From Dinoroseobacter shibae DFL 12 = DSM 16493 (GTDB lineage Bacteria > Pseudomonadota > Alphaproteobacteria > Rhodobacterales > Rhodobacteraceae): a DNA stretch of 64,000 bases. Location: assembly GCF_000018145.1 (NCBI RefSeq), contig NC_009952.1:377501-441500 (forward strand). Reading direction: 5' to 3'. This document shows, piece after piece, positions 4,691 to 20,319 of the stretch. The notes below the pieces were generated by a model, which saw nothing but the letters and a program-made list of their open reading frames with translations, did not search any database and had not been told where the DNA came from. How positions within the stretch are numbered: position 1 is the first letter of the stretch; each line of letters begins with the position of its first letter. The position numbers were made by a program, and so were the translations under genes.

Positions 4691-4788
4691 GCTGCTCTGG
4701 CTTGCTCTATGTCGAAAGCTGCCGGTCTGCTGTCCGCCCCCAGACCTGCCATTCCGCCCCGCCGCAGCGAAGGTCGGCTTCCCGCCCA

Positions 4789-5937
4789 TCAATTCCAGCG
4801 GTACTTGCTTCCAGCCTTCTGCAGCCGTTCAGCGAGGGTTTGGGGATGGTCCTTTGCGTATTCAAGCAGAGCTTCAACATGACGTTCCATGAAGGCTGGT
4901 AGGTCGGTCTCTTGCACATCCGAGATCGCGGCGCGTGTTAAAAAGAGGCCCATGAGTTGGGCATCTAGCTGGCGGATTTTGGCGAGCTTGTTTGCGTAGA
5001 TGATATCTGTTGGCACGAGGCCGCAACTATGGTCCGCGAGGTTCTCTTGCACGGTGTCCGAGAACTTGCGCCAGAGCTCATGTGACGGCCACCGCGAGCG
5101 ATTGGTGTCTTGGGTTGGTGAACAGTAGCGTATGCGGCTAAAGGCGTCTCGATAGGCGTCGCCGATACCCGCGCGAAGATCATCCCAGGAGTGGAGCTCG
5201 AACTGATTGCGGAGTTGTTTGGATCCAAGGCGCAGCTCAAACCGCCAGACCAGACTCTTGTCTCGCTCACGCAAGTTTAGAGGACCGTTCCCCTGCTTAT
5301 TGCGCGTTTTGTTCCAAATCTCTAGCCAGCCCAGCTTTCCTGTCTTCATCACCTCCAGCCGCTTGTCATAGATCGCCAGTTGGCGATTGCTCACTGCTCC
5401 GGCACGAAGGCCAGTGACGCGCGCGCCGGTCGCTTGTGTGGCCGTCTCATCAATCCCGGTATACTCCGTGACTTTGGTACCTGGTGGAACAACGAGAGCG
5501 GTGCGGTCGGGTTCAAACCAGGGCGCAAGCATGTCCACGGCGACGTCCACGCGAGAGATACGCATGAGCTGATCCGAGTATCGAATGCGGAGATCCTCAG
5601 TCACGCGGCGGAAGTGGTCTTCTGCTTGACCGAGCCCACCCGTCGCCAGGCCGAACGCGCGGAAGTCGACAATTATTCCCGGATTGTGAGGAACCCGATC
5701 AAGTGGATCTTGGAACATCCAGACAGCACCAAGGTCTCCGGTATGGCAGGCAAACCCGCGTGCTCCCTTTGGTGTCATTGAGAAGGCTGTGTCGCCAATC
5801 TGGACGATGCATTCACTGTTCGTCTTTCGACACTGGGTCTTCGCTTGGGAGAATTGGTTCTGTAGAGCCAATGGAATATCCGCCTGAACGGTAACCTTCA
5901 GGCCGTCAAACCCGACGTGGAGGATTTCTGCGCCCAT
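4789..5937 (-). CDS. Rep_trans-like replication initiation protein
   Basis: A 382-residue protein resembling the replication-initiation-factor family (Rep_trans, PF02486) of rolling-circle plasmids and integrative elements. Seen directly: RISRVDVAVDM near the middle-left and the tyrosine-containing LAIYDKRLEV, both typical of the family's nicking domain. The C-terminal third is helical and of unknown role. Such initiators allow an excised element to replicate briefly as a circle before reintegration. It lies downstream of the AlpA-like gene on the same strand, separated by about 260 bp of very GC-rich DNA that could contain its origin. The family assignment is from motif recall, not a search. 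Confidence 0.7.
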   Translation of the reverse strand: MGAEILHVGFDGLKVTVQADIPLALQNQFSQAKTQCRKTNSECIVQIGDTAFSMTPKGARGFACHTGDLGAVWMFQDPLDRVPHNPGIIVDFRAFGLATGGLGQAEDHFRRVTEDLRIRYSDQLMRISRVDVAVDMLAPWFEPDRTALVVPPGTKVTEYTGIDETATQATGARVTGLRAGAVSNRQLAIYDKRLEVMKTGKLGWLEIWNKTRNKQGNGPLNLRERDKSLVWRFELRLGSKQLRNQFELHSWDDLRAGIGDAYRDAFSRIRYCSPTQDTNRSRWPSHELWRKFSDTVQENLADHSCGLVPTDIIYANKLAKIRQLDAQLMGLFLTRAAISDVQETDLPAFMERHVEALLEYAKDHPQTLAERLQKAGSKYRWN

Positions 5938-6196
5938 ATACTCTGTCTTTCATTTTCGTATTCGTGGAGGGGGGTGTTACATGACCCCCCCTTGCTCGCT
6001 CCGCTCCGAGCGCAGAGCGCGCTGGCGGCGGGCCGCCGCGCGTCGCGCTCGGGCGAACCGAATAAGAGGGTGAGAGCACCATTGCTTATCGCAACCGTAT
6101 CTGCGCTCGGAGGCTGTCCCTCCGGGACTGAGACTTCACCGGGGCCACTCCCCCTGGAGAACGCGGCAACAGATGCTGAGAAAGAAAGCGCTGCGC
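5938..6196. other. GC-rich non-coding gap, possible origin region
   Basis: There is no convincing gene here. The stretch 5985-6060 is rich in short overlapping inverted copies of CGCTC and GAGCG. It lies directly upstream of the Rep-like gene, where a nick site or origin would be expected, but no conserved nick site could be recognised. Confidence 0.3.
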
Positions 6197-6418
6197 TCAT
6201 TCGGAGGTGTGCGCTCTGCGGCGCGCGTCCGCCCAGCCGAGAACTTCGTCTTGGCGATACCGCACCGACCGTCCGAGCTTGTAGAACGCGGGCCCATACC
6301 CGGTAACACGCCATTTCTGAATGGTGCGCACCGATTGGCAAAGCATGTCGGCCACCGCAACTTCGTCAAGGAACGCGGGCGCTTGGCCGGATTGCTCAGG
6401 GTCAAGGAGATCTCTCAT
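6197..6418 (-). CDS. AlpA-like / excisionase HTH protein
   Basis: A 73-residue protein of the MerR-like winged-helix HTH_17 type. The core FLDEVAVADMLCQSVRTIQKW is followed by GPAFYKLGRSVRYRQDEVLGW, the usual recognition-helix and wing pattern. Proteins of this type act as excisionases (recombination directionality factors) or as activators of integrase genes in P4-like elements. It sits between the integrase side and the Rep-like gene, which fits a switch from the integrated to the excised state. Confidence 0.8.
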   Translation of the reverse strand: MRDLLDPEQSGQAPAFLDEVAVADMLCQSVRTIQKWRVTGYGPAFYKLGRSVRYRQDEVLGWADARRRAHTSE

Positions 6419-6477
6419 GTCTCGTCCTCATTAGTTGGATCAATGACGACGAGTTACGCAGGCGCAGCCGGGCGACG

Positions 6478-7260
6478 CTATCCGAACTGCTTGCGATAAT
6501 GTTTCATGATTTCGGGCGTTAAACCCAAGTCGCTGACAGCCATGCTTTTTTCGCGAACCGTGCGCGACGCGTTTGCGATGCGGCCGAAGGAGATCGTCGG
6601 GTCCACCACCTGGGCAATGCGCACGCAGAACCGAGCGGCATCGGTGATCGGCTCGGAATCACCTGTCCAGTCGAGTTTGAAGGGTCTGCGCAAAATGGCC
6701 TCCCATACTTGAAAGGCTGCATGAAGCAGATGAAGCGTCGCGTCGTCTTCAGGTCGGCCCACCCGTCCTTTGCCGACCATCCTTGTTGCGATTTTTGTTG
6801 TCTCGGCGAGCGCGGAGAGCTTTGCAGCAAGATCGACCACATCCCCTTTGGTAAGGCGCGGTGGTGTGGCCTCCGCGTCTGAAGATTTGGAACCACGCTG
6901 ATCGGGATACAGAGCTGGAGAAAGGTCGTGGGCGAGTTGGAAGCTGTCTATCGCCCGCCAAGCCTCGCCGGTCATTATCGACAGCATGTCCGCGAGCTCC
7001 GATGCCTTTTGGGTCAGACGGTCGAGGTCCTTGCGCACAGTTTTCTTGTTTGCATGATCCTGTTTTCTCAGGTTCCAATAAAGGAGCGCACCGCATTCAA
7101 GGCTCAGAAAGACGGTGGAAGAGGTATCTGACGGAATTCCGAACTCTCGTTCTATTGAGCTGCTTAGAGCCTCGGAGAAGTATTTCCGCTTTCTGATCTC
7201 TTCTAGCTGGAGAAGCGCAAGGAACTCTTTGTTCGCGAAGAGACCATTCAAGTAGCTCAT
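6478..7260 (-). CDS. Hypothetical protein downstream of integrase
   Basis: About 260 residues, with no family that I recognise. It is mostly helical and charged, with a possible coiled segment around KKTVRKDLDRLTQKASELAD. I chose ATG 7260 because a GGATAGCAGG-like ribosome site precedes it and it starts four bases after the integrase stop; a longer frame starting at 7326 would overlap the integrase gene. The tight spacing suggests it is cotranscribed with the integrase. Confidence 0.6.
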   Translation of the reverse strand: MSYLNGLFANKEFLALLQLEEIRKRKYFSEALSSSIEREFGIPSDTSSTVFLSLECGALLYWNLRKQDHANKKTVRKDLDRLTQKASELADMLSIMTGEAWRAIDSFQLAHDLSPALYPDQRGSKSSDAEATPPRLTKGDVVDLAAKLSALAETTKIATRMVGKGRVGRPEDDATLHLLHAAFQVWEAILRRPFKLDWTGDSEPITDAARFCVRIAQVVDPTISFGRIANASRTVREKSMAVSDLGLTPEIMKHYRKQFG

Positions 7261-7264
7261 CCTG

Positions 7265-8458
7265 CTATCCTTTGACCACGCGTAGCGGTGTGGTTCTTGC
7301 GCGCAAACCCAGTCCCAACCCTTCACTCAATGCTGCAGCGTTTTCCTCTGCCGCCTTGCGCACCGGATCATCCGCAAGGTGTGCATAGCGCATGGTTGTC
7401 TGAAGCTGAGTATGCCCGAGCAAGCGTCCCACCATCTGTATTGGCATCCCAGACGATACCGCGTTTGAGGCATAGGTATGGCGCAGATCATGAATCCGGA
7501 CGTCATTCAGGCCCGCCAGATCGCGAATGCGCCGCCAAGGGTGCTGCAAGTCGGTGATGTGCTGGCCTTCAATCCTTCCCGCAATGACATAGGGATTGCC
7601 GGGATCGTGGGGCAGGGCGTCCAGGACTGCGCGGGCAGCTGATGGCAGAGGAATGCGCCGCGCCCCGGTTTTGCTGTCCGGCAGTTCCATCCCGTTGGGC
7701 GTAAGGTAGTCCCAACGTAACGTCTGAATTTCTCCGAGGCGGCAGCCGGTGAGGATCAGCAACTTGAACGCGGCCACAACATAGGGGCTTTCCGAACCGG
7801 ACCGTTCGCAGTCAGCAAGCACTTCGCCCAACCGACGCAACTCCGCTTGGCTCAGGTAGCGCTCCCGTTTTCGTTCGCGGTACTTGGGAACATGGCGGCA
7901 AGGGTTGGATCCATCCGGGCGAAGGCCCCAGACTTCAGCCAGGTTGAACATCTTCGACAACACACCGAGCGTTCGGTTGGCTTGGTATGGCTTGTCTCTG
8001 AGTTTGTGGTGCAGTTCCGCGATATCGCGGCGTTCGACATCGACGACTTTGAAGGTGCCTATGGCTGGATTAATGAAGAAGTCGATAGATCGGCGATACT
8101 CGCGCTGAGTGCTTGGCTTGCAGCGCTCCATGACATGAGCCTCGAAAAACCGTTCACAGAGGGCCGCGACGGTTGAGGCGCGCCGGTGCTGGCTGATCTC
8201 TTCCACCGGGTTACCGCCACTGGCCACGTCCCCAAGCAGCTCTTTGGCGCGTTGCCGGGCCTGCTGGACTGTCACGGTTCCATGCCGACCGATGGAGGCG
8301 CGACGGGTCCGTCCGCCTTTGCGATACTGGACTTGATAAGTGCGGGTTCCGGAGCGCATGACACGGACACCAAAGCCTTTCACCTCGTCGTCCCACACGA
8401 AGTAATCACGGCTTTCGACGGTTAGGCTTTCGACAAGGCGCTTGGTCAGTTTTGGCAT
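7265..8458 (-). CDS. P4-type tyrosine integrase of element A
   Basis: A 397-residue site-specific tyrosine recombinase. It has an N-terminal arm-binding/DUF4102-like domain (LTKRLVESL, then the YFVWDDEVKGFGVRV block), a central SAM-like core-binding domain, and a catalytic domain. Catalytic residues are visible: Arg in TGCRLGEI, the HDLRHT box, the GH of LLGHTQLQTT, and the nucleophilic Tyr in TTMRYAHL. Start ATG 8458 gives MPKLTKRL, the usual start of this family; ATG 8473 is five residues upstream. It lies next to attR (8636-8680), as expected for the enzyme that inserted element A into tRNA-fMet. Confidence 0.93.
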   Translation of the reverse strand: MPKLTKRLVESLTVESRDYFVWDDEVKGFGVRVMRSGTRTYQVQYRKGGRTRRASIGRHGTVTVQQARQRAKELLGDVASGGNPVEEISQHRRASTVAALCERFFEAHVMERCKPSTQREYRRSIDFFINPAIGTFKVVDVERRDIAELHHKLRDKPYQANRTLGVLSKMFNLAEVWGLRPDGSNPCRHVPKYRERKRERYLSQAELRRLGEVLADCERSGSESPYVVAAFKLLILTGCRLGEIQTLRWDYLTPNGMELPDSKTGARRIPLPSAARAVLDALPHDPGNPYVIAGRIEGQHITDLQHPWRRIRDLAGLNDVRIHDLRHTYASNAVSSGMPIQMVGRLLGHTQLQTTMRYAHLADDPVRKAAEENAAALSEGLGLGLRARTTPLRVVKG

Positions 8459-8486
8459 TCGAACTCTCCGCAACAGGCCCGATCCA

Positions 8487-8503
8487 TGGAAGCAAGGTGG
8501 AAG
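8487..8503 (+). repeat. TGGAAG double repeat next to integrase
   Basis: A TGGAAGCAAGGTGGAAG block lies between the integrase start and the right att copy. It resembles the GTGGAAGC pairs at 1939-1962 and 20320-20343, so it is a candidate integrase arm site. Confidence 0.35.
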
Positions 8504-8635
8504 ATCGGAGGGGCGTTTCAGTGCGCAAGAGGTAGAAAGCCAGCGTGCGAGTGGTCAATGAAAAATGCTTCGATTCAATAAGATAGGGTAGAGCAGAGGA
8601 GTTCAGCGCAGCCCGTAGAAATGCTCAGAGGCGAT

Positions 8636-8680
8636 CTCATAACCTGAAGGTCGTAGGTTCAAATCCTACTCCCGCAACCA
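8636..8680 (+). repeat. attR core: second copy of tRNA-fMet 3' end
   Basis: A 45-bp exact duplicate of 1828-1872, cut off before the anticodon stem, so it is a fragment and not a working tRNA. It separates element A from element B. The stop codon and last codons of the serine recombinase gene lie in its complementary strand. Confidence 0.92.
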
Positions 8681-10274
8681 TTGATGTCGAACAGACCGCC
8701 TTCGGGCGGTCGTTCGCATTCTGGATCCCCCCAAGACCCAAAAGTCCGGCAAGTTCGCCAACAAGCTCAATGGTCAAGCCATCCGCTTCCGGAACAAGAC
8801 GGATCTCCGACAAAAGGCTGCGGATAGCATCCGCCGCTTCCACTGATCTCTGCGGGTCGGCCAGCGCCCCTTCCAGGCTCTCGACCTGTGCGCGATACCG
8901 ATCCGCAAGACCGGGATGAATAAGGACCGGTGACTCTTCTTCTGTCTCGCGCAACTCCTGCTCAAGACGCAGCTTCTCCGCCTCCAGCGCCGTCATCTTG
9001 TCCTTCATGCTGATGTGGAACATCCCCTGGGCAATCGCATCGACGATCTGGTCTATCTGTCGATTGACGGCGGCGAGTTTGCGCGCGTTCTGGGCGCGCT
9101 CCTTGCGCACCGTCCCCGCAAGGCGATTGAACTCTTCCTGGTAGGCCCGGACATATTCCGCGATAAGGTCGGGCTGCAAAAGCTGCTCCTTTAGCCCGCT
9201 GAGGATACGGGCCTCCAAGTCTTCTCGTCTGATCGTCAATCGGTTGTCGCATGTGCCTTTGTTGCGGACACTTGCGCAGCCATAGAATTGGCTTCCAACC
9301 TGAACAAAGCCACCACCGCAGCGGCCGCACTTGAGCATCCCGGAAAACAGATGCCGGGCGCGCCTCGCCCGGCCGAGCTTCTTGATGCCGTCACTGATTG
9401 CCATATTCCGGGTTTGAAGCTGTCGTGCCTTCACGGCGTCCCAAAGGTCCTCGTCCACGATCCGCAGGTGTGGCACGTCTTCGATTACCCACGCGTCTGG
9501 CGGGTTTGGGCGGGCCTGGCGTTTGCCGGTCGCTGGATCCTTGATGAAGCGTTGGCGGTTCCAGACGAGGCGTCCGATATAGAGTTCGTTGTTCAGGATG
9601 CCGGTGCCGCGCTGGTGGTTGCCGTAGATCGTCGAGGCCCCCCATGTCCCGCGAGGGCCTGGGACACCTTCCGCGTTCAAGGTGCTCGCGATCGCCCTCG
9701 GGCTGAGCCCATTCTTGTAGTCTTCCAAAATCCTGCGCACGACCTCGGCCTGATCCGGGTTGATGGCCCGTTCCCCGGTGGCCAGGGTCCCGTCGGCTTG
9801 CATCTGACGCAGGACGTCATAGCCAAAGGTAACGCCTCCGGCCGACTTGCCCTTGCGCACTCTGCCTTCCAGACCCCGGTGCGTCTTCTGGGCGAGATCC
9901 TTGAGAAACAGGCTGCTCATGGTGCCCTTGAGGCCGATATGAAGCTCGGAGATCTCCCCCTCTGCCACCGTGAACACAGGAATGCCCTGGAACCGCATCT
10001 GTTTGAAGAAGGCCGCGATGTGCTCCTGATCCCGGCTTATCCGGTCGAGCCCTTCCGCGACCACGATATCGAACGCGTTGCCGCGCGCGTCCTCCAGCAA
10101 ACGCTGGTAGGCGGGGCGCAAATGTGACGCACCGCTGAGCCCCCGGTCGGAATAGGTCTCGGCCTCCCTCCAGCCGTTGCTGGTGATCAAACGGGCACAG
10201 AGGCGATGTTGATCCTCTATGGAACTGTCGCTTTGGAGATCCGTGGAATAGCGGGCGTAAATGGCGGCGCGCAT
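8637..10274 (-). CDS. Large serine recombinase of element B
   Basis: A 545-residue large serine recombinase. The N-terminal resolvase domain has the catalytic Ser in AIYARYSTDLQSDSS and the downstream DRISRD block. It is followed by the recombinase domain (GVTFGYDVL, NPDQAEVVRRI), a zinc ribbon (CGRCGGGF ... YGCASVRNKGTC) and a coiled-coil tail. ATG 10274 starts MRAAIYARYS; the longer frame to 10385 lacks family similarity. Oddity: the last 14 residues, ending GVGFEPTTFRL, are an antisense reading of the tRNA-fMet fragment, so the gene's end is supplied by the integration target. A hairpin-forming repeat is just upstream of the start (10306-10338). Confidence 0.92.
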   Translation of the reverse strand: MRAAIYARYSTDLQSDSSIEDQHRLCARLITSNGWREAETYSDRGLSGASHLRPAYQRLLEDARGNAFDIVVAEGLDRISRDQEHIAAFFKQMRFQGIPVFTVAEGEISELHIGLKGTMSSLFLKDLAQKTHRGLEGRVRKGKSAGGVTFGYDVLRQMQADGTLATGERAINPDQAEVVRRILEDYKNGLSPRAIASTLNAEGVPGPRGTWGASTIYGNHQRGTGILNNELYIGRLVWNRQRFIKDPATGKRQARPNPPDAWVIEDVPHLRIVDEDLWDAVKARQLQTRNMAISDGIKKLGRARRARHLFSGMLKCGRCGGGFVQVGSQFYGCASVRNKGTCDNRLTIRREDLEARILSGLKEQLLQPDLIAEYVRAYQEEFNRLAGTVRKERAQNARKLAAVNRQIDQIVDAIAQGMFHISMKDKMTALEAEKLRLEQELRETEEESPVLIHPGLADRYRAQVESLEGALADPQRSVEAADAIRSLLSEIRLVPEADGLTIELVGELAGLLGLGGIQNANDRPKAVCSTSMVAGVGFEPTTFRL

Positions 10275-10305
10275 GGGTCGGGCCTTTCGGTTTGGTACAC
10301 TAGAC

Positions 10306-10338
10306 GGGCCCATCCAAGTATAGGCATGGGATGGGCCC
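10306..10338. promoter_or_regulatory. 10-bp inverted repeat upstream of serine recombinase
   Basis: GGGCCCATCC (10306-10315) and GGATGGGCCC (10329-10338) are perfect inverted repeats with a 13-base gap. They lie about 30 bp upstream of the recombinase start. They could be an operator, a recombinase binding site or a terminator stem for the genes arriving from the right. Confidence 0.45.
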
Positions 10339-10354
10339 TGTCTTCCACTTTCGA

Positions 10355-10370
10355 TTGCAACCCGTTGCAA
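10355..10370. repeat. TTGCAAC-CC-GTTGCAA palindrome, left of recombinase trio
   Basis: A 16-bp palindrome with perfect 7-bp arms. A near-identical copy in inverted orientation is at 13544-13559. The two flank the two tyrosine recombinases and the HTH gene. Confidence 0.5.
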
Positions 10371-10409
10371 CGGAAAATCGATCAAATTGATACCTGGCGG
10401 GTGCCTCGG

Positions 10410-11486
10410 TCACGTCTGGCGGACTTTGGGCCGCTTCCCCGAGAGGCGCTTCAACGTCGCTTGAACCAGGTCCTGGTACTCGGAACAGGCTGACAGGCCA
10501 GTGGCGCGGTTATAGTGCTTCTCGGCCATGTCGAGGGTCGCGTGCCCGAGTATGTCGCGGATGATGTTGACATGCTCGGGGTCCTGCTCGGCGATGCTGG
10601 TCGCGGCGATGGTGCGAAACGCATGGGGTCGCAGTGCGTGGCCGAGGAGGCGCTCGGTGACCTTGGGAAACTGGCGCGACAAACCGTCGGGCGTGATGGC
10701 ACCCCCGTATCGGTTGATCCAAAGCGCCTTCGTGTCTGCACCGCCCAAGAGCCTGACCCGATAGGTGGTCAGATAGACCTCCATGGGGCCAACGAGGACC
10801 TTTGGCAGCGGAAACCAACGGTCTTTCTTGTCCTTCATGTCCTCGGCGGAAAAGTGGACCTCAAAGCCGGTCCCAACCCGTCGGACGTGCCGATCCGTGG
10901 TCATGGACAACAGCGTGCGGCGGCGCACGGGCCGGGAAATCAGAAAGCCGACCATGAGCGCCTCGCGGAACCGGATCGCTCGCTTCATCTCGCTCGTATG
11001 ACGGGAGGTCTCGACCTCCTCCAGAGCCGCGAGGCACTTGGCGAGAACCTCGCCGGCCGAGAGGGGCGGAGCTGCTGGCAGGCTTTTGCGATCTGCCCGG
11101 TGCATCAGGCGCCTCGACACTGTGTTCAGCCAACCCCAATCGGTCGATGGCTGAAGCGCCCGTGTAACGACATAGAGGTCATTGATCAGGTTCTTGATCG
11201 TTCCGATCTGAACCCGCGCCTCAAGTTCGTCCATGAACCCGCGCACCGCATCTCGCGTGACGCGATCTGCGGGCGGATGTTCGAGCAGGGCAGGGCGGTG
11301 CCGAGCGAGCCAGGAAAGCCACTGTCCATAACTCTGACGCCGCTTGATGCGACTGCCCTCCGACCAGCTGGCGCAAGGCCCCGTGCCGTCGAAGATATCC
11401 CCTTCCGCGAAGAGGTCCTCCCAGGCGGATCGATCCGCCTGAGGCCAGTCAGAGAAACGGAGAACGAGCGGGATTGCGTCAGACAT
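10410..11486 (-). CDS. Tyrosine recombinase, second of a tandem pair
   Basis: A 358-residue phage-integrase-family recombinase. The catalytic domain is seen in the C-terminal half: Arg in FLISRPVRRRTLL, the box HAFRT, the GH of DILGHATLDM, and the Tyr in AEKHYNRA. I chose ATG 11486 (MSDAIPLVL) because it overlaps the stop of the upstream recombinase gene by eight bases, a translational coupling arrangement; a longer frame from 11534 would overlap more. Paired or triple tyrosine recombinases of this kind occur in Tn554-like and RIT-like elements, where all members are needed for movement. It differs strongly from the element A integrase. Confidence 0.87.
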   Translation of the reverse strand: MSDAIPLVLRFSDWPQADRSAWEDLFAEGDIFDGTGPCASWSEGSRIKRRQSYGQWLSWLARHRPALLEHPPADRVTRDAVRGFMDELEARVQIGTIKNLINDLYVVTRALQPSTDWGWLNTVSRRLMHRADRKSLPAAPPLSAGEVLAKCLAALEEVETSRHTSEMKRAIRFREALMVGFLISRPVRRRTLLSMTTDRHVRRVGTGFEVHFSAEDMKDKKDRWFPLPKVLVGPMEVYLTTYRVRLLGGADTKALWINRYGGAITPDGLSRQFPKVTERLLGHALRPHAFRTIAATSIAEQDPEHVNIIRDILGHATLDMAEKHYNRATGLSACSEYQDLVQATLKRLSGKRPKVRQT

Positions 11487-13158
11487 CGATCTTGCCCCTC
11501 CATTTGGACAGCACGACCTTGTCGTAATGGTCATGGGCCCACTGGTTGCTGAGTTCCGCGTAGAAATCCATCGTGGTCTGCAGGCGCTTGTGCTTCAGCA
11601 ACCGGCGCACAACCTCGAAATTGCCCGGGCACTCCTCCAGATACATCTTGGCCGCGACGTGGCGGAACAGGTGGGGATTGACCGAAAGGCCCGTCTCCCG
11701 TTGAACGCGTTGCGTGAGTTCGCCACCAAAATTGCTGGGGCAACGGGGCTTTCCATCGCTCATGCGGGGAAAGAGGGCGCGTCCATCCGCGCGCGAAACC
11801 TGCGAGCGGAATTGCATGATGTAGCGATGCAGGAGTTTGGAACTGCCTGCGTTCAGACGGACTTCGATGGGCTCACTGTTCTTGACCTCTACCCCCTCGA
11901 TACGGATCGTGTAGAGCGTGTGGGTCCCGGAGCGCTGCGGGAGCAGGTGCCTGTCCAGGTCAAGTCCGGCCAGGTTCTTGATCCGCATCGGGCAACCTAG
12001 CAAGATAGCGAGCGCCGCAGCGTGCATTGCTGCCAGCGCGCTGTCGCGGGAGAGAGGCCGCTCTTGCGCGCGCGACATCAATGTACTCGGCAGGCTTATC
12101 AACTGTTCGAGGTTGTCCCAACTGTTGAACTGAGCAAGGCGTTTCCTGTTTTTGGAGCTCATGCCAACCGCTGATCCTGCGACCCGCTTTTGGATCGCCT
12201 TGAGTGCCTTGATCTGTTCCTCAGGCGCGTTCAGATGGTGCCGCGCGATGGCGATGGCGGTTCCCGCGATATTGCCCAGCCCCGAAGGGATATCGTCGCC
12301 GCCACGCCTCGCCTTCATCTTGCGAAAGGCAGTTTTGAGATTGTCTGCCGTGATCACTTCGGCGAGCTGGGTGAACTCTGACGGCTCATGGCCCACAGAG
12401 ATCAGCGCATCCAGAATCTGTCTGAGATGCGCTTTGATATTGCGCAGGCTTGTCTCGCGCAGGGGTTTGTCGGGGCCGTCATCACTGAAGAGATCCCTAT
12501 GGGAGACGCGGTCGAGATAGTCCTGGATCTCCTTCTGGAGGCTCGCCGGGTAGTCCGAGAGGGGGCGTGCCAAGTAGCGCGTTGAGGGCGCGCGCTTCAA
12601 CACCGGCAGATCAAGTCCAGACCTCCGGATCACATGGTTCCACGTGTCGATCATCGACTTGACGTGCTTGTCCGGGTCCCTGGTCAGCAGGGTGGCGTCA
12701 AGCTCCGCGCGAAACGCCTCGACGACTTCCGTATTTACGTCCTCTGGCTGAATGGACCGGGCGCTGCAATACCGCGCGAAACGGTGCAGCCCCCAAACTT
12801 GATGGGAGGAGTGCACGCTTGCCAGAAATCGATCCCAGGGCGGGGTCAGAGGCTGGGCGGTCTCGCGATCCTGCAACACGCCCGTTGCCCGCAACGCCGC
12901 GGCCAGATCGGTCCTCAACGTGCTGAGCGATTTGGGTTTGACCCCACAGCGGACGGGATGCAACGTCTCGAGCAGGCGGCGGAGCTGCGGAATATCTGTC
13001 GGAATATCCGATGGGGGGCGATGGAGATATTTGGAGACGCGCGATATCGCTGACTGCCTGGCGCTTTGGCGCTTCTGGTCAGGATCAGGATGGGCCTCCA
13101 GGGCCTCGAGAATGTCTGCCAGGGATGTGGGCAGTTTGAAAGACCTATGGTGGGTCAT
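11479..13158 (-). CDS. Tyrosine recombinase, first of a tandem pair
   Basis: A 559-residue site-specific recombinase. It has a long helical N-terminal half (about 330 residues), longer than in standard integrases, then a catalytic domain. The catalytic Arg is in GCPMRIKNLAGLDL, the box is HLFRHVAAK, Lys replaces the second His/Trp region in RLLKHKRLQTT, and the Tyr is in TTMDFYAEL. The gene ends in ATGTCTGA, overlapping the start of the next recombinase. The two are almost certainly made from one message with the HTH gene at 13317-13529, which lies 158 bp upstream. Confidence 0.87.
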   Translation of the reverse strand: MTHHRSFKLPTSLADILEALEAHPDPDQKRQSARQSAISRVSKYLHRPPSDIPTDIPQLRRLLETLHPVRCGVKPKSLSTLRTDLAAALRATGVLQDRETAQPLTPPWDRFLASVHSSHQVWGLHRFARYCSARSIQPEDVNTEVVEAFRAELDATLLTRDPDKHVKSMIDTWNHVIRRSGLDLPVLKRAPSTRYLARPLSDYPASLQKEIQDYLDRVSHRDLFSDDGPDKPLRETSLRNIKAHLRQILDALISVGHEPSEFTQLAEVITADNLKTAFRKMKARRGGDDIPSGLGNIAGTAIAIARHHLNAPEEQIKALKAIQKRVAGSAVGMSSKNRKRLAQFNSWDNLEQLISLPSTLMSRAQERPLSRDSALAAMHAAALAILLGCPMRIKNLAGLDLDRHLLPQRSGTHTLYTIRIEGVEVKNSEPIEVRLNAGSSKLLHRYIMQFRSQVSRADGRALFPRMSDGKPRCPSNFGGELTQRVQRETGLSVNPHLFRHVAAKMYLEECPGNFEVVRRLLKHKRLQTTMDFYAELSNQWAHDHYDKVVLSKWRGKIDV

Positions 13159-13316
13159 GATATACCTCTTTGATCATTGGGTAGGGGACATTGGGGGACG
13201 TTCGGGGCCATGGCGGCCCTCTTGCGGACATTCGGGAAACCAAGGGCTTGGTTTTGAAGCCGAAGTTGTCGGATCCGTTCTCCCGACAGCCTGAAAAACC
13301 GCCCCAGAAGAGGACG

Positions 13317-13529
13317 TTAGAGGACATCGGCCAGACCCGTCTTTCCGCGAGCAGCGGCAAGCGCCCTCAGGTCTGATCTGGCAATGCGCCAGTCGCGTCC
13401 CAGCCGCGTGGCCGGGAGCTGACCGGACGCGATCCAGCGCCGGACGGTCTTCGGGCAGATCCGGAAAACCTGCGCGACTTCCTTGACGCTCAGGTACGGG
13501 GCGTTGGGCGGAAACGGCCAATCAGTCAT
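13317..13529 (-). CDS. Small HTH_17 DNA-binding protein
   Basis: About 70 residues from MTDWPFPP. The HTH core is YLSVKEVAQVFRICPKTVRRWIASGQ followed by ATRLGRDWRI, the excisionase/MerR-like pattern. A longer frame starts at 13598, but MTDWPF at 13529 is closer to the domain. It heads the recombinase genes on the same strand and may be their directionality factor or regulator. A palindrome (13544-13559) lies 15 bp upstream of the chosen start and could be its operator. Confidence 0.75.
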   Translation of the reverse strand: MTDWPFPPNAPYLSVKEVAQVFRICPKTVRRWIASGQLPATRLGRDWRIARSDLRALAAARGKTGLADVL

Positions 13530-13543
13530 GGTCCGCCTTCCCC

Positions 13544-13559
13544 GTGCAACGAGTTGCAA
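13544..13559. repeat. GTGCAAC-GA-GTTGCAA palindrome, right of recombinase trio
   Basis: Read in reverse, it matches 10355-10370 at 14 of 16 bases, including the two 6-bp core arms. Position and orientation mirror the left copy, so the recombinase genes are flanked by an inverted pair. Confidence 0.5.
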
Positions 13560-13598
13560 AGTCATTGCGTGCCGCCTCTCGCGCCAGAAGGCGCACAA

Positions 13599-14125
13599 GA
13601 GAAAGCAGCGCAGAGAGATCAGGGGAGGACAGACGGTCCTCGGGAGCGACAGTGCTTGTCGTCATCGATAAGTTCCTCAATTGGAACCGCTCGTGACAAT
13701 GTCAGGTGGTGTAGGCGCACGCCTTCACTCAATGCACAGGTGCACCGATCTCTTCCGAGATTCGGACCATCGTCATCGAGTGCTCCCTCGGGCGTGCAAA
13801 CGCCCAGAGTGCTCCCTGCGGCCCAGCCTCGCGGGCTGGTGTCAGGTCAAAGTCTTCCGCATGCCAGCAAACTCACGCCAGCACGCGCATCGACCTTAAT
13901 GGCCGGAACCTAAACCTGCATTAAGCGACCGTTCGGAAAACGAGGCTCCGGCTGCTAAGCCGCGACTGGCCTCCCTTTTTCGCTGAACCGGATTTGCTTT
14001 GCAAATGAAGGGCATTCTGCGCGAAAAAAGTTTTTCTCAGCGACCTAAAACAAGCATGCGAAGGTATCAGGGTTGACGTAAGTTCATTACGCCGTCGGCA
14101 GCGGTGGACCAACATTCAACTGCGC
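13599..14125. other. Non-coding gap between recombinases and CRISPR-Cas
   Basis: No convincing gene on either strand. Seen: an 11-bp palindrome TGACAATGTCA at 13694-13704 and a GTGCTCCCT 9-mer present twice (about 13782 and 13811). The right part (13920-14120) is AT-richer than its surroundings. It ends at the terminator of the tracrRNA gene. Confidence 0.4.
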
Positions 14126-14209
14126 AAAAAAGAAAACGCGCCCCGCAGGACGCGTTTTAATGTGGTGCTTCTTCGAGCTTGTTAACGGCTCGACCGCGAA
14201 TTCTGAACG
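14126..14209 (-). ncRNA. tracrRNA of the type II-C system
   Basis: On the minus strand, the segment 14209 to about 14179 is an imperfect complement of the CRISPR repeat RNA. It includes an uninterrupted 12-base match through GTTCAGAATTCG, then CGGTC, AGCCG and GTTAAC blocks with small mismatches. It is followed by a GAGC...GCTC nexus-like stem and a strong intrinsic terminator: AAAACGCG pairs with CGCGTTTT (14133-14158), then CTTTTTT. A promoter lies upstream: TTGAAA (complement of 14238-14243), 17 bases, TACTGT (complement of 14215-14220). This gives an RNA of about 84 nt, transcribed away from cas9. It also fixes the direction of crRNA as minus strand. Confidence 0.85.
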
Positions 14210-14214
14210 TAAAG

Positions 14215-14243
14215 ACAGTAACTCGGCCCGGAAACAATTTCAA
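14215..14243 (-). promoter_or_regulatory. Promoter of tracrRNA
   Basis: The -35 is TTGAAA at 14243-14238, with a 17-base spacer and -10 TACTGT at 14220-14215, read on the minus strand. A start near 14208-14210 would place the anti-repeat at the very 5' end of the RNA. Confidence 0.6.
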
Positions 14244-14297
14244 GTTGCGTTACGCGCCTCCACTTCGCATTCTTCTCGGCGATTAGGGAGATAAGCG

Positions 14298-17200
14298 ATG
14301 CGCCTGGGCCTTGACATAGGAACCAGCTCAATCGGCTGGTGGCTGTACGAAACCGACGGCGCCGGGTCGGATGCCCGCATAACCGGTGTCGTGGATGGGG
14401 GCGTGCGTATCTTCTCCGACGGGCGCGATCCGAAATCCGGTGCATCGCTGGCCGTGGACCGTCGGGCCGCCCGTGCCATGCGCCGCCGCCGCGACCGGTA
14501 TCTGCGTCGGCGCGCCACCCTGATGAAAGTGCTTGCCGAGACAGGCCTGATGCCCGCGGACCCGGCCGAGGCGAAGGCGCTGGAAGCCCTTGATCCCTTC
14601 GCCCTGCGGGCCGCCGGGCTGGACGAACCCCTGCCCTTGCCCCATCTCGGTCGCGCGCTGTTTCACCTCAACCAGCGGCGGGGCTTCAAGTCGAACCGCA
14701 AGACCGATCGGGGCGACAACGAAAGCGGCAAGATCAAGGACGCGACCGCGCGGCTCGACATGGAGATGATGGCCAACGGCGCCCGCACCTATGGCGAGTT
14801 CCTGCACAAGCGCCGGCAGAAGGCGACCGATCCGCGCCATGTGCCCAGCGTGCGCACCCGCCTGTCGATTGCCAATCGCGGTGGGCCGGATGGCAAGGAA
14901 GAAGCCGGGTATGATTTCTACCCGGACCGGCGGCACCTGGAGGAGGAGTTTCACAAGCTCTGGGCCGCGCAGGGGGCCCATCACCCGGAACTGACCGAGA
15001 CCCTGCGCGATCTGCTGTTCGAAAAGATCTTCTTTCAGCGGCCCCTGAAAGAACCCGAGGTCGGGCTTTGCCTCTTCTCCGGCCATCACGGGGTTCCGCC
15101 GAAAGACCCCCGCTTGCCCAAGGCGCACCCCCTGACACAGCGCCGGGTGCTCTACGAGACAGTCAACCAGCTACGTGTCACGGCGGACGGGCGCGAGGCT
15201 CGTCCCCTGACGCGGGAAGAGCGCGACCAGGTCATCCACGCGCTCGACAACAAGAAGCCGACGAAATCGCTTTCGTCGATGGTCCTGAAACTGCCCGCGC
15301 TGGCGAAGGTTCTGAAACTCCGCGATGGTGAGCGGTTCACCCTGGAAACCGGCGTGCGAGACGCCATCGCCTGCGACCCGTTGCGCGCCAGCCCTGCCCA
15401 TCCGGACCGCTTCGGCCCGCGCTGGTCCATCCTTGATGCCGATGCCCAATGGGAGGTGATCTCGCGCATCCGCCGAGTGCAGAGCGATGCCGAACATGCC
15501 GCCTTGGTGGATTGGCTGACCGAGGCACACGGGCTCGACCGCGCGCATGCTGAGGCGACGGCCCATGCCCCCCTGCCCGATGGCTACGGACGGCTGGGCC
15601 TGACCGCGACGACCCGTATCCTCTACCAGCTTACGGCGGACGTGGTGACCTACGCCGATGCGGTCAAGGCCTGCGGCTGGCACCATTCCGACGGGCGGAC
15701 CGGCGAATGCTTCGACCGCCTGCCCTATTACGGCGAAGTGCTCGAACGCCACGTCATTCCCGGCAGCTACCACCCCGACGACGACGACATCACGCGGTTC
15801 GGCCGGATCACCAATCCGACGGTTCATATTGGCCTGAACCAGCTTCGCCGCCTCGTGAACAGGATCATTGAAACCCATGGCAAGCCCCATCAAATCGTCG
15901 TGGAGCTTGCCCGCGATCTCAAGAAGTCCGAAGAGCAGAAGCGCGCCGACATCAAGCGTATCCGCGACACGACCGAGGCGGCGAAGAAGCGGAGCGAAAA
16001 GCTCGAAGAGCTGGAGATCGAAGACAATGGCCGCAACCGGATGCTCCTGCGGCTGTGGGAGGATCTGAACCCCGACGATGCGATGCGCCGGTTCTGCCCC
16101 TACACGGGCACGCGTATCTCGGCCGCCATGATTTTCGACGGCAGCTGCGACGTGGATCACATCCTGCCCTATTCGCGCACGCTGGACGACAGTTTCCCCA
16201 ACCGGACGCTCTGCCTGCGCGAAGCCAACCGGCAGAAGCGCAACCAGACCCCATGGCAGGCCTGGGGCGATACCCCGCACTGGCACGCCATCGCCGCCAA
16301 CCTGAAGAACCTGCCCGAGAACAAGCGCTGGCGTTTCGCCCCGGATGCTATGACGCGGTTCGAGGGCGAAAACGGGTTCCTCGATCGGGCGCTAAAGGAC
16401 ACGCAATACCTCGCCCGGATCTCTCGCAGCTACCTCGACACGCTCTTCACCAAGGGTGGGCACGTCTGGGTGGTGCCTGGTCGGTTTACTGAAATGCTCC
16501 GTAGACACTGGGGCCTGAACTCTCTGCTTAGCGATGCCGGGCGCGGCGCGGTAAAGGCCAAGAACCGAACCGACCACCGCCATCACGCCATCGATGCCGC
16601 CGTGATCGCCGCAACCGACCCTGGCCTGCTCAACCGGATCAGCCGCGCTGCGGGTCAGGGCGAGGCAGCCGGCCAGTCCGCGGAACTGATCGCCCGGGAC
16701 ACACCCCCGCCCTGGGAAGGCTTCCGCGACGACCTGCGCGTCCGGCTCGATCGGATCATCGTCAGCCACCGCGCGGATCACGGGCGCATCGACCACGCGG
16801 CCCGCAAACAGGGCCGGGACAGCACCGCGGGGCAATTGCACCAGGAGACAGCCTATTCCATCGTCGATGATATCCACGTTGCCAGCCGGACCGATCTTCT
16901 GAGCTTGAAACCCGCGCAGCTGCTGGATGAGCCGGGCCGAAGCGGCCAGGTGCGCGACCCGCAGTTGCGAAAGGCCTTGCGCGTGGCGACTGGCGGCAAG
17001 ACCGGCAAGGATTTCGAGAACGCCCTGCGCTACTTCGCGTCCAAGCCCGGCCCATATCAGGCCATCCGCCGGGTGCGCATCATCAAGCCGCTGCAAGCGC
17101 AGGCGCGCGTTCCCGTGCCCGCGCAGGACCCGATCAAGGCCTACCAGGGCGGCAGCAACCACCTGTTCGAGATCTGGCGACTTCCGGACGGAGAGATCGA

Positions 17201-17537
17201 AGCACAGGTCATCACGAGTTTCGAGGCCCATACCCTCGAAGGCGAGAAGCGTCCTCACCCTGCGGCCAAGCGTCTTTTGCGTGTGCACAAGGGGGACATG
17301 GTGGCTTTGGAACGGGACGGTCGACGGGTCGTCGGACATGTCCAAAAAATGGACATTGCAAACGGCTTGTTTATTGTCCCGCACAATGAGGCGAACGCCG
17401 ATACACGCAACAACGACAAATCGGACCCGTTCAAATGGATTCAAATCGGCGCGCGGCCCGCGATCGCATCCGGAATTCGCCGCGTATCCGTCGATGAAAT
17501 CGGCCGCCTTCGCGACGGGGGAACCAGGCCCATATAG
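14298..17537 (+). CDS. cas9: Cas9, type II-C
   Basis: A 1079-residue RNA-guided DNA endonuclease, the short length usual for II-C. Domains in order: RuvC-I (GLDIGTSSIGW, catalytic Asp6), an arginine-rich bridge helix (RRAARAMRRRRDRYLRRR, about 52-70), a short REC lobe, RuvC-II (IVVELARDLKK, Glu536), HNH (CDVDHILPYSRTLDDS, His621, with the following NRTLCLREANRQK), RuvC-III (HHAIDAAVIAA, His763 and Asp766) and a C-terminal PAM-interacting region. All four RuvC and the HNH key residues are present, so it should be active. GGGAGATAAGCG precedes the ATG. The cas1 gene follows 60 bp downstream. Confidence 0.97.
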   Translation: MRLGLDIGTSSIGWWLYETDGAGSDARITGVVDGGVRIFSDGRDPKSGASLAVDRRAARAMRRRRDRYLRRRATLMKVLAETGLMPADPAEAKALEALDPFALRAAGLDEPLPLPHLGRALFHLNQRRGFKSNRKTDRGDNESGKIKDATARLDMEMMANGARTYGEFLHKRRQKATDPRHVPSVRTRLSIANRGGPDGKEEAGYDFYPDRRHLEEEFHKLWAAQGAHHPELTETLRDLLFEKIFFQRPLKEPEVGLCLFSGHHGVPPKDPRLPKAHPLTQRRVLYETVNQLRVTADGREARPLTREERDQVIHALDNKKPTKSLSSMVLKLPALAKVLKLRDGERFTLETGVRDAIACDPLRASPAHPDRFGPRWSILDADAQWEVISRIRRVQSDAEHAALVDWLTEAHGLDRAHAEATAHAPLPDGYGRLGLTATTRILYQLTADVVTYADAVKACGWHHSDGRTGECFDRLPYYGEVLERHVIPGSYHPDDDDITRFGRITNPTVHIGLNQLRRLVNRIIETHGKPHQIVVELARDLKKSEEQKRADIKRIRDTTEAAKKRSEKLEELEIEDNGRNRMLLRLWEDLNPDDAMRRFCPYTGTRISAAMIFDGSCDVDHILPYSRTLDDSFPNRTLCLREANRQKRNQTPWQAWGDTPHWHAIAANLKNLPENKRWRFAPDAMTRFEGENGFLDRALKDTQYLARISRSYLDTLFTKGGHVWVVPGRFTEMLRRHWGLNSLLSDAGRGAVKAKNRTDHRHHAIDAAVIAATDPGLLNRISRAAGQGEAAGQSAELIARDTPPPWEGFRDDLRVRLDRIIVSHRADHGRIDHAARKQGRDSTAGQLHQETAYSIVDDIHVASRTDLLSLKPAQLLDEPGRSGQVRDPQLRKALRVATGGKTGKDFENALRYFASKPGPYQAIRRVRIIKPLQAQARVPVPAQDPIKAYQGGSNHLFEIWRLPDGEIEAQVITSFEAHTLEGEKRPHPAAKRLLRVHKGDMVALERDGRRVVGHVQKMDIANGLFIVPHNEANADTRNNDKSDPFKWIQIGARPAIASGIRRVSVDEIGRLRDGGTRPI

Positions 17538-17597
17538 GCCGGAGTCGCACGAATCGAAAAAACATGTCATGCTTCCAACGGCTTGGAGGGATGGCCA

Positions 17598-18509
17598 ATG
17601 GACCAGATCGTCGATATCGCCACGGATGGGCGGCATCTCTCGCGTGACCGGGGCTTCCTGAAGGTCAGCGAGGGCGCCCGGGAAATCGGCCGTATCCCCC
17701 TGGACCAGATCGCGGGCGTCATCGTGCACGCCCATGGCACCACCTGGACCACCTCCCTTCTGACCGAGCTGGCGGATCGCGGGGCGCCGGTCGTGCTCTG
17801 CGGGGCCAACCACGCGCCGCGCTCGGTCCTCATGCCGCTCGACGGGCACCATGCCCAGGGCGCGCGCCTGCGGGCACAGTGGCAGGCCAGGGCCCCGCTC
17901 GTGAAACAGGCCTGGAAGCAGACGGTAATCGCGAAGATCGCCATGCAGGCCGCCGCCTTGGAGGCCATGGGCGAACCCCATGCCCCCGTCGGCATGCTCG
18001 CGCGCAAGGTGACCAGCGGCGATGCCACCAATGTCGAGGCGCAGGCCGCGCGTCTCTACTGGCCCCGAATGATGGGCACCGAGTTCCGCCGCGACCGCAC
18101 CGCCCCCGACCTCAACGCGCTCCTGAACTATGGCTACACGGTGCTGCGCGCCGCCACCGCCCGTGCGGTCGTGGCCGCAGGGCTGCACCCGACCATCGGC
18201 CTGCACCATTCGAACCGCGGCAACGCCTTTGCCCTGGCCGACGACCTGATGGAGCCGTTCCGCCCGCTCGTCGATTGTTGCGTGCGCGGCCTAGCCGCCC
18301 GTAACGGACCCCAGGTCGATCCCGCGGCCAAGCAGTCCCTAGCGCGGCTCATCGCGCTGGACCTGCCCCTCGGCGACAGCCTCACCCCGGTTTCCGTCGC
18401 GCTCGGCAAGCTTGCCATCTCTCTCGGTCAGAGCTTCGAGTCCGGAACGCTGGATCTCGCCCTGCCTGCACCGCCCGATGCGCTGACCCTTGCAGGCCTC
18501 GGCGCATGA
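17598..18509 (+). CDS. cas1: Cas1 integrase, type II-C
   Basis: A 303-residue spacer-acquisition integrase that works with Cas2. Metal ligands are visible: Glu147 in NVEAQAARLYWPRM, the His pair 203-204 in GLHHSNRGNAFALADD, and Asp215/216. I chose ATG 17598 (MDQIVDIATDGRHLS) because GGAGG lies eight bases upstream; the TTG at 17583 adds only five unlikely residues. The stop overlaps the start of cas2 by four bases (ATGA), so the two are translationally coupled. Confidence 0.96.
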   Translation: MDQIVDIATDGRHLSRDRGFLKVSEGAREIGRIPLDQIAGVIVHAHGTTWTTSLLTELADRGAPVVLCGANHAPRSVLMPLDGHHAQGARLRAQWQARAPLVKQAWKQTVIAKIAMQAAALEAMGEPHAPVGMLARKVTSGDATNVEAQAARLYWPRMMGTEFRRDRTAPDLNALLNYGYTVLRAATARAVVAAGLHPTIGLHHSNRGNAFALADDLMEPFRPLVDCCVRGLAARNGPQVDPAAKQSLARLIALDLPLGDSLTPVSVALGKLAISLGQSFESGTLDLALPAPPDALTLAGLGA

Positions 18510-18850
18510 CCGACGCCCCCGCCTTTCTCTCTGGATACCGGATCATGTGGATACTCGTGATGTTCGACCTGCCCACCGACACCAAGTCCCAGCGCAAGGC
18601 CGCCACCGCATTCCGGAATTTCCTTCTGGATGAAGGGTTCGAGCGGAGCCAGTTCTCGGTCTACGCCCGCTTCGTGAACGGCAAGGAGGCGTTCCAGACC
18701 CGCGTGCGCCGGATCGAACGAAACCTGCCCGAGAAAGGCGACATCCAGGTCCTGAACTTCACGGACCGCCAATACCGTGATATCGTCCACTTCTCGGATC
18801 AGGGCCGAAGGGCGGCTCGGAAGAATCCAGAGCAGCTTGCGCTTTTTTGA
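18506..18850 (+). CDS. cas2: Cas2, type II-C
   Basis: A 114-residue partner of Cas1 in spacer integration. The ferredoxin-like first strand carries the conserved Asp21 in WILVMFDLPTDTKSQR, then FRNFLLDEGFERSQFSVYARF. It overlaps cas1 by four bases. The array starts 73 bp downstream. No cas4 or csn2 is present, which together with the short Cas9 gives subtype II-C. Confidence 0.95.
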   Translation: MTDAPAFLSGYRIMWILVMFDLPTDTKSQRKAATAFRNFLLDEGFERSQFSVYARFVNGKEAFQTRVRRIERNLPEKGDIQVLNFTDRQYRDIVHFSDQGRRAARKNPEQLALF

Positions 18851-18923
18851 TGAATTTTTTCCAGATTGCCTCACTTGTCCTCTTCCAAAACCACTGTTGT
18901 TTCAGGGGCTTGGAAAAGGAACA

Positions 18924-20189
18924 AGTTTAGCTGTTCAGAATTCGGGGTCCAGCCGCAACCGCGTCCAGACACGACATTCGGGGGGCAAGAGTTTAGCTGT
19001 TCAGAATTCGGGGTCCAGCCGCAACAAGCGTGTGGGCGTCCCGCCCGTCAGCCACAGTTTAGCTGTTCAGAATTCGGGGTCCAGCCGCAACACATTTACC
19101 ACTCGGCGCGTTGATACCGTTAGTTTAGCTGTTCAGAATTCGGGGTCCAGCCGCAACGTGTTTGGCCATCTCCCGCAGCTTGTTGTAAGTTTAGCTGTTC
19201 AGAATTCGGGGTCCAGCCGCAACCGCACAAAAGCTCGTAGCTGATCTGAAAGAGTTTAGCTGTTCAGAATTCGGGGTCCAGCCGCAACTGAACCCATCCG
19301 CGCCTGCACTCTGACATGAGTTTAGCTGTTCAGAATTCGGGGTCCAGCCGCAACGAAATCGCAACCCGGTGCTACGCGCAACCGAGTTTAGCTGTTCAGA
19401 ATTCGGGGTCCAGCCGCAACCGTTGGCGAAGGCTCCACACATATCGAAAAGTTTAGCTGTTCAGAATTCGGGGTCCAGCCGCAACTTGAACGTTGGCGCG
19501 TGTATCCTCGTACCGAGTTTAGCTGTTCAGAATTCGGGGTCCAGCCGCAACCTGACGAACATCGCCCTGACTGACGTAAGTAGTTTAGCTGTTCAGAATT
19601 CGGGGTCCAGCCGCAACCTGCACGTCGCGCGCTCACGCCATGCCTGCAGTTTAGCTGTTCAGAATTCGGGGTCCAGCCGCAACACATCGGGCATCCGCGC
19701 CCACAAAGGAGTAAGTTTAGCTGTTCAGAATTCGGGGTCCAGCCGCAACGGAGTTCGCGCCCTCCTGCTGAACGGCGCCAGTTTAGCTGTTCAGAATTCG
19801 GGGTCCAGCCGCAAAAAAGCCGCCCTCGCCTGCGCGTGTGAGCGCAGTTTAGCTGTTCAGAATTCGGGGTCCAGCCGCAACACCGCCGCGTTGCCTTTCG
19901 CGGCTGAATAGAGTTTAGCTGTTCAGAATTCGGGGTCCAGCCGCAACACAAAGAAAGACGGTAACGGGAAAGAGCGAGTTTAGCTGTTCAGAATTCGGGG
20001 TCCAGCCGCAACGTGGCGGTGAATTTCGGCGGGTTTGCCGAGAGTTTAGCTGTTCAGAATTCGGGGTCCAGCCGCAACCGACAACGCCGACGAGAGCGGA
20101 TACGCCTGAGTTTAGCTGTTCAAAATTCGGGGTCCAGCCGCAACCCACATTTGACACGGGAACAGCGCCAACCCAGTTTAGCTGTTCAG
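18924..20189 (-). CRISPR. CRISPR array, 19 full 36-bp repeats plus a truncated one
   Basis: The 36-bp repeat reads AGTTTAGCTGTTCAG...CCAGCCGCAAC on the plus strand. Full copies start at 18924, 18990, 19056, 19122, 19188, 19253, 19319, 19385, 19450, 19516, 19582, 19648, 19714, 19780, 19846, 19912, 19977, 20043 and 20109. The 19 spacers are 29-30 bp and all different. Variants: the copy at 19780 ends in A instead of C; the copy at 20109 has one G-to-A change; the last copy (20175-20189) keeps only 15 bp. Complementarity to the tracrRNA shows that crRNA is read from the minus strand, toward cas2. On that strand each repeat ends GCTAAACT, a possible -10 element, as in other II-C arrays with promoters inside repeats. 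Confidence 0.97.
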
Positions 20190-20244
20190 CTATTTCTTCC
20201 GGAAATACGACAAACTAGCCGAGTTCGACAACGGTGGTTGCGCC

Positions 20245-20256: not shown

Positions 20257-20319
20257 AATTTTTACTCGTTTCCAAACGCTTATGCGCCGCCCTCCGGGGC
20301 GGCGTTTGCGTTTCCAGCC

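Follow-up and report, generated by a model that had tools for sequence, protein, structure and literature searches.

Conserved palindromes as probable control sites of the recombination genes in a tRNA-fMet island of Dinoroseobacter shibae

In a 64-kb stretch of Dinoroseobacter shibae DFL 12 (contig NC_009952.1, positions 377,501 to 441,500; hereafter the window), two near-identical palindromes flank a helix-turn-helix (HTH) gene and two tyrosine recombinase genes, TR1 and TR2 (together, the trio), beside the gene of a large serine recombinase (SR), within an island at a tRNA-fMet gene. The palindromes are here considered to be, probably, protein-binding control sites (operators) of the island's recombination genes rather than crossover sites, because their conservation follows SR and not the trio, the right site stands before a promoter-like motif, a base change in relatives preserves the palindrome, and the left site appears constrained at the DNA level within a coding region. 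Gene order, conservation at both places, the adjacency of SR to the tRNA, the promoter-like motif and the pairing of the leaders are read directly from the sequence. The minus strand carries, in this order, the structured leader, a 47-aa open reading frame (ORF), the HTH gene, TR1, TR2 and SR, and the small ORF overlaps the HTH start by 8 bp. The features of this module are as follows.

10355-10370, no strand: right palindrome TTGCAACCCGTTGCAA, 39 bp past the TR2 stop, with the -35 element (AAGACA) of the SR promoter-like motif following after 10 bp
13544-13559, no strand: left palindrome GTGCAACGAGTTGCAA, within the small-ORF 3' end and 14 bp ahead of the HTH start
13663-13782, minus strand: structured leader RNA of the small ORF, with a three-way junction and a hairpin before the start codon
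13522-13665, minus strand: small ORF of 47 aa, containing LVRLLAREAARNDFATRC
13317-13529, minus strand: HTH_17/excisionase-family DNA-binding protein, 70 aa
11479-13158, minus strand: TR1, large tyrosine recombinase, 559 aa, with the RKHRHY catalytic set present by eye
10410-11486, minus strand: TR2, tyrosine recombinase of about 358 aa, its ORF open from 11534 and overlapping the TR1 end
10317-10344, minus strand: SR promoter-like motif, with -35 AAGACA (10339-10344), a 16-bp spacer and -10 TATACT (10317-10322)
10275-10316, minus strand: SR leader able to fold over the SR start, its 5' arm mostly lost in transcripts from the presumed start
8637-10274, minus strand: SR, large serine recombinase, 545 aa, its ORF running into the tRNA-fMet-derived attachment (att) sequence

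Both palindromes lie where the original prediction had placed them, and its count of 14 matching bases out of 16 in opposite directions is correct, the phrase "opposite directions" carrying little information because each site is itself nearly palindromic. The HTH gene, TR1 and TR2 are likewise as it described them; the small ORF and SR had been overlooked. When at most one mismatch is allowed, exactly these two matches occur in the window, compared with 0.00 in 100 dinucleotide-preserving shuffles; with at most three mismatches there are four, against 1.89 expected. The chance of a pair with one member no more than 200 bp from each trio end is about 3e-8, a rough figure based on a genome-wide rate that includes these sites. 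The core TGCAACNNGTTGCA occurs at four places in the 4.42-Mb genome, namely both palindromes and two others, which adjoin a gene reading, by eye, like a LacI-family regulator together with sugar-type genes (L015). These two further sites were considered as relatives of the pair and rejected, the LacI-family/sugar-type locus being taken as ordinary.

The right palindrome was found upstream of SR in each of the 15 close loci whose SR start is intact and whose SR is at least about 60% identical. These are the window, L007-L014, L067, L068, L071, L072 and L108, which were aligned (14/14), and L128; L036 and L069 belong to the L011 contig, L037 and L070 to the L013 contig, and L117-L121 share positions or motifs of L014, L007, L010, L008 and L009, so that each was counted once. 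The centre of the palindrome varies across loci (GG, AA, TT, CG, GC, CC or TC), and in L013 and L072 the core reads TGCACC..GGTGCA, with one base pair changed on both sides and palindromy kept. The conserved block consists of the palindrome, 10 bp (mostly TCGAAAGTGG), an AAGACA-like element, about 16 bp and a TATAAT-like element, with little conserved leftward. Four of the loci keep the right site without TR1/TR2 upstream: L096/L067 (about 3.7 kb examined, to the contig start), L097/L071 (about 14.5 kb), L108 (12 kb; a Loktanella plasmid with an intact SR) and L128 (about 10 kb). These trio-less elements have the right site without the left, and a clean empty site, with one palindrome, the small-ORF end on its left and no trio, was sought in L096, L097, L108 and L128 and found in none of the four. 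SR is the one gene common to the right-site loci, and the HTH gene is not common to them.

The close SR loci were located via SR itself; an SR-independent search with the extended right motif found it in 6 of 390 genomes of the order, once in each, always just upstream of SR, and the reversed-control motif gave no match among the matches listed. Outside the close set, the partial SR matches L129-L131 (56-62%) have no palindrome before SR. Also outside the 15 is L075/L101, where the SR start is missing (first 111 residues), SR is 66.5% identical and lies beside a TR1 piece, and no palindrome is found. Apparent in-frame fusions after deletions were noted here, joining a TR1 piece to SR (L101, 12629-14092) and the TR1 N-terminus to TR2 (L099, 373-1431). 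In L108 and L096 the palindrome has on its left a divergent ORF that is, by eye, a possible regulator.

The motif that follows the right palindrome was found once, compared with 0.2 expected, and a similar block is present in relatives. From just past the -10 element to the SR start, a G-rich arm can pair with the ribosome-binding-site arm in 14 of 14 leaders. The stem comprises 8-10 bp in nine of them, L011 having a 9-bp stem, and 4-6 contiguous bp in the window, L012, L067, L071 and L108. Transcripts from the assumed start (about 7 nt past the -10 element) keep 3-5 bp of the stem in the 13 leaders scored, which are those other than L011, and the L010 leader has extra pairs inside the shortened stem. 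Taken together, the palindrome and the SR leader stem have 91.5% paired cells compared with 87.3% in shuffles and a covariation score of 0.127 compared with 0.067 (each reached by 0 of 500 shuffles), and three pairs are changed on both sides, a number reached by 127 of 500. Covariation support for this combination is modest.

The left palindrome is formed by the codons GCA ACT CGT TGC of the 47-aa ORF, and the sequence GCAACNCGTTGC is present in six of the seven close loci with the small ORF and the HTH gene. In the seventh, L007, GCAACNCGTTGC is lost, a shorter palindrome, GCAACAGTTGC, lies next to its place, and the same shorter palindrome occurs in the TR2-SR gap; the two match at 17 of 18 bases when inverted. 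The contigs of L013 and L072 stop before the left site, and that of L014 is without the TR1 N-terminus, the HTH gene and the left site. At the codon level, alanine is GCA in 7/7 and arginine CGT in 6/7 close loci; as a control, none of 18 invariant alanine columns of TR1 and HTH keeps a single codon, and CGT accounts for 0.17 of the arginine codons. The left-site codons thus look constrained at the DNA level. When the stretch upstream of the HTH gene was compared with that downstream of TR2, scoring inverted matches only, the best match was the palindrome pair itself in all seven close loci.

Based on these observations, a putative dimeric factor would bind both palindromes and switch the tyrosine recombinase genes and SR jointly, whether as a roadblock, by looping or by activation. 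Protein binding, the identity of the binder and the sign of regulation are inferred. In the close clade SR has a promoter-like motif of its own; in distant relatives it abuts the TR2 stop. The spacing differs between the two groups: in ten of the 11 distant trio+SR loci the SR start falls no more than 4 bp ahead of the TR2 stop and no more than 11 bp past it (not located in L042), compared with a gap of 128-382 bp in L007-L011, L013 and L014 and 135 bp in the window (not located in L012). The only ones of 18 distant loci with GCAACNNGTTGC are L043, where it lies within TR1, and L044, where it is far removed from the trio, and no such site was seen in the stretches examined of L122-L127, which belong to the genus of G607 and have TR2 before SR.

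Several observations weigh against reading the palindromes as operators. HTH, TR1 and TR2 are not seen where the right site persists in trio-less loci. The left palindrome falls within an ORF, and a search of 13300-14320 revealed no sigma-70-type promoter. The right site is centred about -52 from the expected start, which is not a classical activator position, and matching ends on a unit of about 3.1-3.2 kb also resemble terminal repeats. The scores of single close-locus pairs are only modestly above the cross-locus background, being reached by 0.015-0.135 of background pairs, a margin that is modest partly because the background pool includes pairs of close loci. SR is damaged by stops, truncation or frameshift in L067, L071 and L128, and L129, with an SR 60% identical over residues 1-321 and 42% beyond, has no palindrome. 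Finally, an extra palindrome is present within the 3' end of TR2 in L011 (at 4436) and L068, and the TR2 palindrome of L012 (at 10641) doubles as the SR one and is fused to the SR promoter context; recombination between such sites might be involved.

The original prediction offered two explanations, core sites of a RIT/Tn554-like unit nested in element B, the island of the window, or operators for a shared regulator. The palindromes would, on the former, be terminal recombination sites of an HTH-TR1-TR2 cassette inserted between the small ORF and SR, in line with the matching sites at both ends of the unit in the seven close trio loci and with the occurrence of TR1-TR2 without SR in seven loci. 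RIT elements bear 34-bp terminal inverted repeats (PMC10214605). The end-to-end match spans just 14-19 bp here, and in 16 of 16 distant TR1-TR2 loci tested the best inverted match falls within background (0.188-0.862); in eight of these the HTH start was placed by tblastn and in the rest the upstream stretch was estimated from TR1, and L053 and L054, which have cut ends, were left out. Half-sites of 7-8 bp around 2 bp would, moreover, be short for a tyrosine recombinase core. Where the right site is kept without the trio, the sequence on its left is not the small-ORF end in four of four loci. Core sites of the RIT/Tn554 type were rejected on these trio-less right sites and on the absence of a pair above background in distant loci, and terminal sites of such a cassette are considered unlikely. 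The nesting itself is borne out, as HTH-TR1-TR2 lies between the small ORF and SR, which are often direct neighbours in trio-less loci. The outcome that the original prediction had named as refuting, homologous trios without the palindrome at matching positions, was obtained in the distant trios, although both sites are kept in all close homologues in which both ends are available.

Alternatively, the palindromes could be accessory or crossover sites of SR, the central dinucleotide between half-sites being serine-recombinase geometry. Consistent with this, SR is common to the right-site loci, as the SR-independent search also indicates, the 2-bp centre is variable, and L008 and L009 each have identical centres at the left and right sites. 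However, the centres of the two sites differ in the window, L010, L011 and L012, and SR already has att sites at tRNA-fMet, whose half-sites are unlike TTGCAAC, making this explanation quite improbable. Capture by the element of sites for a host regulator, for example of the LacI family, whose operators look alike, is held to be equally doubtful. The two further TGCAACCGGTTGCA sites of the same genome do adjoin a LacI-family-like regulator gene; LacI-family operators, however, usually have a fixed central CG, whereas the palindrome centre varies here, and the extended motif stands before SR in every one of the few genomes of the order that have it. Operators for a shared regulator are the better supported of the two explanations first proposed, with the amendment that the HTH protein cannot be the sole regulator, given that the right site persists in trio-less loci.

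The island whose genes the palindromes would control, element B, is delimited by the following features, which include its cargo.

1796-1872, plus strand: tRNA-fMet gene (CAT), the integration target, behind 23S and 5S rRNA
8636-8680, plus strand: 45-bp copy of the tRNA-fMet 3' end, the SR-side att site of element B and also its junction with element A
14298-17537, plus strand: Cas9, cargo
17583-18509, plus strand: Cas1, cargo
18506-18850, plus strand: Cas2, cargo
18924-20188, plus strand: CRISPR array, cargo
20245-20258, plus strand: distal att core CTCCCGCAACCAAA of element B, just past the CRISPR array

Element B appears to span about 8636-20256 (some 11.6 kb), because a copy of the tRNA-fMet 3' end lies at the SR end and CTCCCGCAACCAAA with a flank shared with G035 lies at the far end. 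By itself, the recurrence of CTCCCGCAACCAAA at the distal end has an E value of 0.03; window positions 20247-20361 are 94% identical to the same-genus genome G035, in which the flank follows another tRNA-fMet fragment. The two ends of the element share TTCGACA and TGGTTGCG in inverted orientation, at 18 of 30 positions, a figure with no control behind it. No truly empty site of the island was seen. The cargo is a type II CRISPR-Cas9 system (14298-20188). In L012 a similar far end can be recognised, the near end being truncated by the contig boundary, and three ORFs have matches to parts of Dsr1; a partial scan of the L007 cargo gave no defence match.

The adjacency of SR to tRNA-fMet recurs in relatives. 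Among 20 trio+SR loci (the window, L007-L014, L038, L040-L048 and L054), SR is followed by a tRNA-Met identified by ARAGORN in 14 and by a tRNA-fMet 3' stretch of at least 45 bp in four more (the window and L008-L010), so that SR reaches up to tRNA-fMet in 18 of 20; the contigs of the other two, L012 and L042, end inside SR. No tRNA-Met was found in the stretch examined of the seven TR1-TR2 loci without SR (L039, L049-L053 and L055), of which L053 ends inside TR2. Because SR reaches tRNA-fMet in 18 of 20 loci while SR-less TR1-TR2 loci show no tRNA-Met, SR rather than TR1/TR2 is the likely integrase of the island, and we infer that it is active and would integrate the island at tRNA-fMet.

Other mobile sequences were observed around the island. 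Element A is stacked at the same tRNA-fMet (window 1796-8680, with 45 bp of the tRNA 3' end duplicated) and contains its own tyrosine integrase (7265-8473), a sub-threshold Rep_trans match (4789-5937) and a DUF4238 protein (2150-4690). Directly past element B lies a two-ORF transposase unit (20426-21648), of the IS3 family by eye, with further 100%-identical copies in the genome. In L009, an attP-like joint, GGTTGCGCCCTCCCGCAACC, at about 970-1010, with element-like sequence on both sides and an orientation opposite to that of the trio, suggests a second element.

With regard to modularity, the small ORF with SR and TR1 with TR2 constitute, judging from gene neighbourhoods, separable modules, because the small ORF directly precedes SR in trio-less loci and TR1-TR2 exists without SR. 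Among 22 SR loci without the trio in the flank examined, the strict small-ORF motif stands directly before SR in 12, and several more appear by eye to have the small ORF. Where both are present, the trio separates the small ORF from SR (the close loci and, by motif, L038, L040, L042 and L044), and the small ORF is a candidate recombination directionality factor. The HTH gene was recovered by tblastn in 8 of 18 distant loci, with L044 added by motif. A search of Rhodobacteraceae found TR1 in 20 of 394 genomes, and SR lies beside TR1 in 14 of these 20, each in another genus. Sixteen plasmid records match TR1, all at less than 60% identity; phage records contain no TR1 match and four distant SR matches, and in viral contigs neither TR1 nor the extended palindrome motif has a match and SR has one distant relative, L110.

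Descriptions of integrative islands usually involve a single recombinase chemistry. The linkage of a serine integrase to a tyrosine recombinase pair in 14 of the 20 TR1-bearing Rhodobacteraceae genomes raises the tentative idea, which falls clearly short of being probable, that a single module could combine two chemistries: SR would insert the island at tRNA-fMet, the TR pair would carry out a second DNA step, possibly resolution, circularisation or exchange with another element, and one operator pair would switch both in this clade. The palindromes offer a concrete way into the possible coordination of the two enzymes, and SR, together with its tRNA-fMet att sites, is an integrase candidate open to testing. 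Furthermore, the two islands examined for defence-type cargo both carry it, as CRISPR-Cas9 in the window and as ORFs matching parts of Dsr1 in L012.

The leader of the small ORF is a candidate new RNA motif. It spans 120-122 bases, with copies at L007:7352-7472, L008:7350-7471, L009:7350-7471, L010:7350-7471, L011:1138-1259 and L012:7346-7466. Both-side changes affect 10 of 40 pairs, compared with 4.3 in shuffles (0/500), and 92.4% of cells are paired, against at most 46.4% on sliding; further pair types number 22 versus 18.9, a value reached by 42 of 500 shuffles. One copy (L008) matched no Rfam family at E<=1, and none was found at gathering thresholds in the window. The covariance model, built from the seven close trio loci, matches these and no other of 52 sources, and has one match in the D. 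shibae genome.

Compared with known systems, SR resembles large serine integrases such as those of TP901-1 and SPbeta (YokA). It has the Resolvase, Recombinase and zinc ribbon domains of this class and profile matches to the TP901-1 integrase and to YokA, the latter over residues 173-438, and element B is bounded by two att sites with the SR gene adjoining one, as is characteristic of large serine integrases. A Paracoccus phage whose serine recombinase is assigned to tRNA-Met has been described (PMC6536676, PMC3925955); unlike in such prophages and large serine integrases, SR here often follows HTH-TR1-TR2 and, in the close clade, has a palindrome upstream. A profile search of the PDB with TR1 gave no match. 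SE, Tn554 and GInt elements carry in a row a large tyrosine recombinase, an ordinary one and a small helper (PMC10214605, PMC5385486). TR1 (559 aa), TR2 (about 358 aa), their overlapping genes and the small helper gene in the row are similar to this arrangement; here, however, the row begins with the HTH gene, there is also a serine integrase, and the SR island lies at tRNA-fMet. Tn554-like transposons are characterised by a TnpC-type third gene and a 6-bp footprint at insertion; the small gene here is of the HTH_17/excisionase type and lies upstream of TR1. GInt comprises three tyrosine recombinases and a small helix-loop-helix protein (ginABCD), whereas two tyrosine recombinases are found here.

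RIT elements measure about 3,500 bp (PMC3414803), and the recombinase unit of about 3.2 kb with matching terminal palindromes is similar in this clade. Three adjacent tyrosine recombinases characterise RIT, whereas two and one serine recombinase are present here, and in place of terminal inverted repeats of about 34 bp there are the short matches of the seven close loci and no pair in the distant ones. With respect to expression, transposases of IS10/IS50-type insertion sequences (IS) are protected from read-through transcription. The folding of the SR leader over its start, predicted mainly for transcripts from upstream, resembles this IS10-type protection, with the difference that it precedes an island serine integrase and not an IS transposase, and that the start site here is assumed. 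In the literature searched, which mostly excluded subscription journals and was seen in part, no description was found of an HTH-TR-TR-SR module at tRNA-fMet or of these palindromes.

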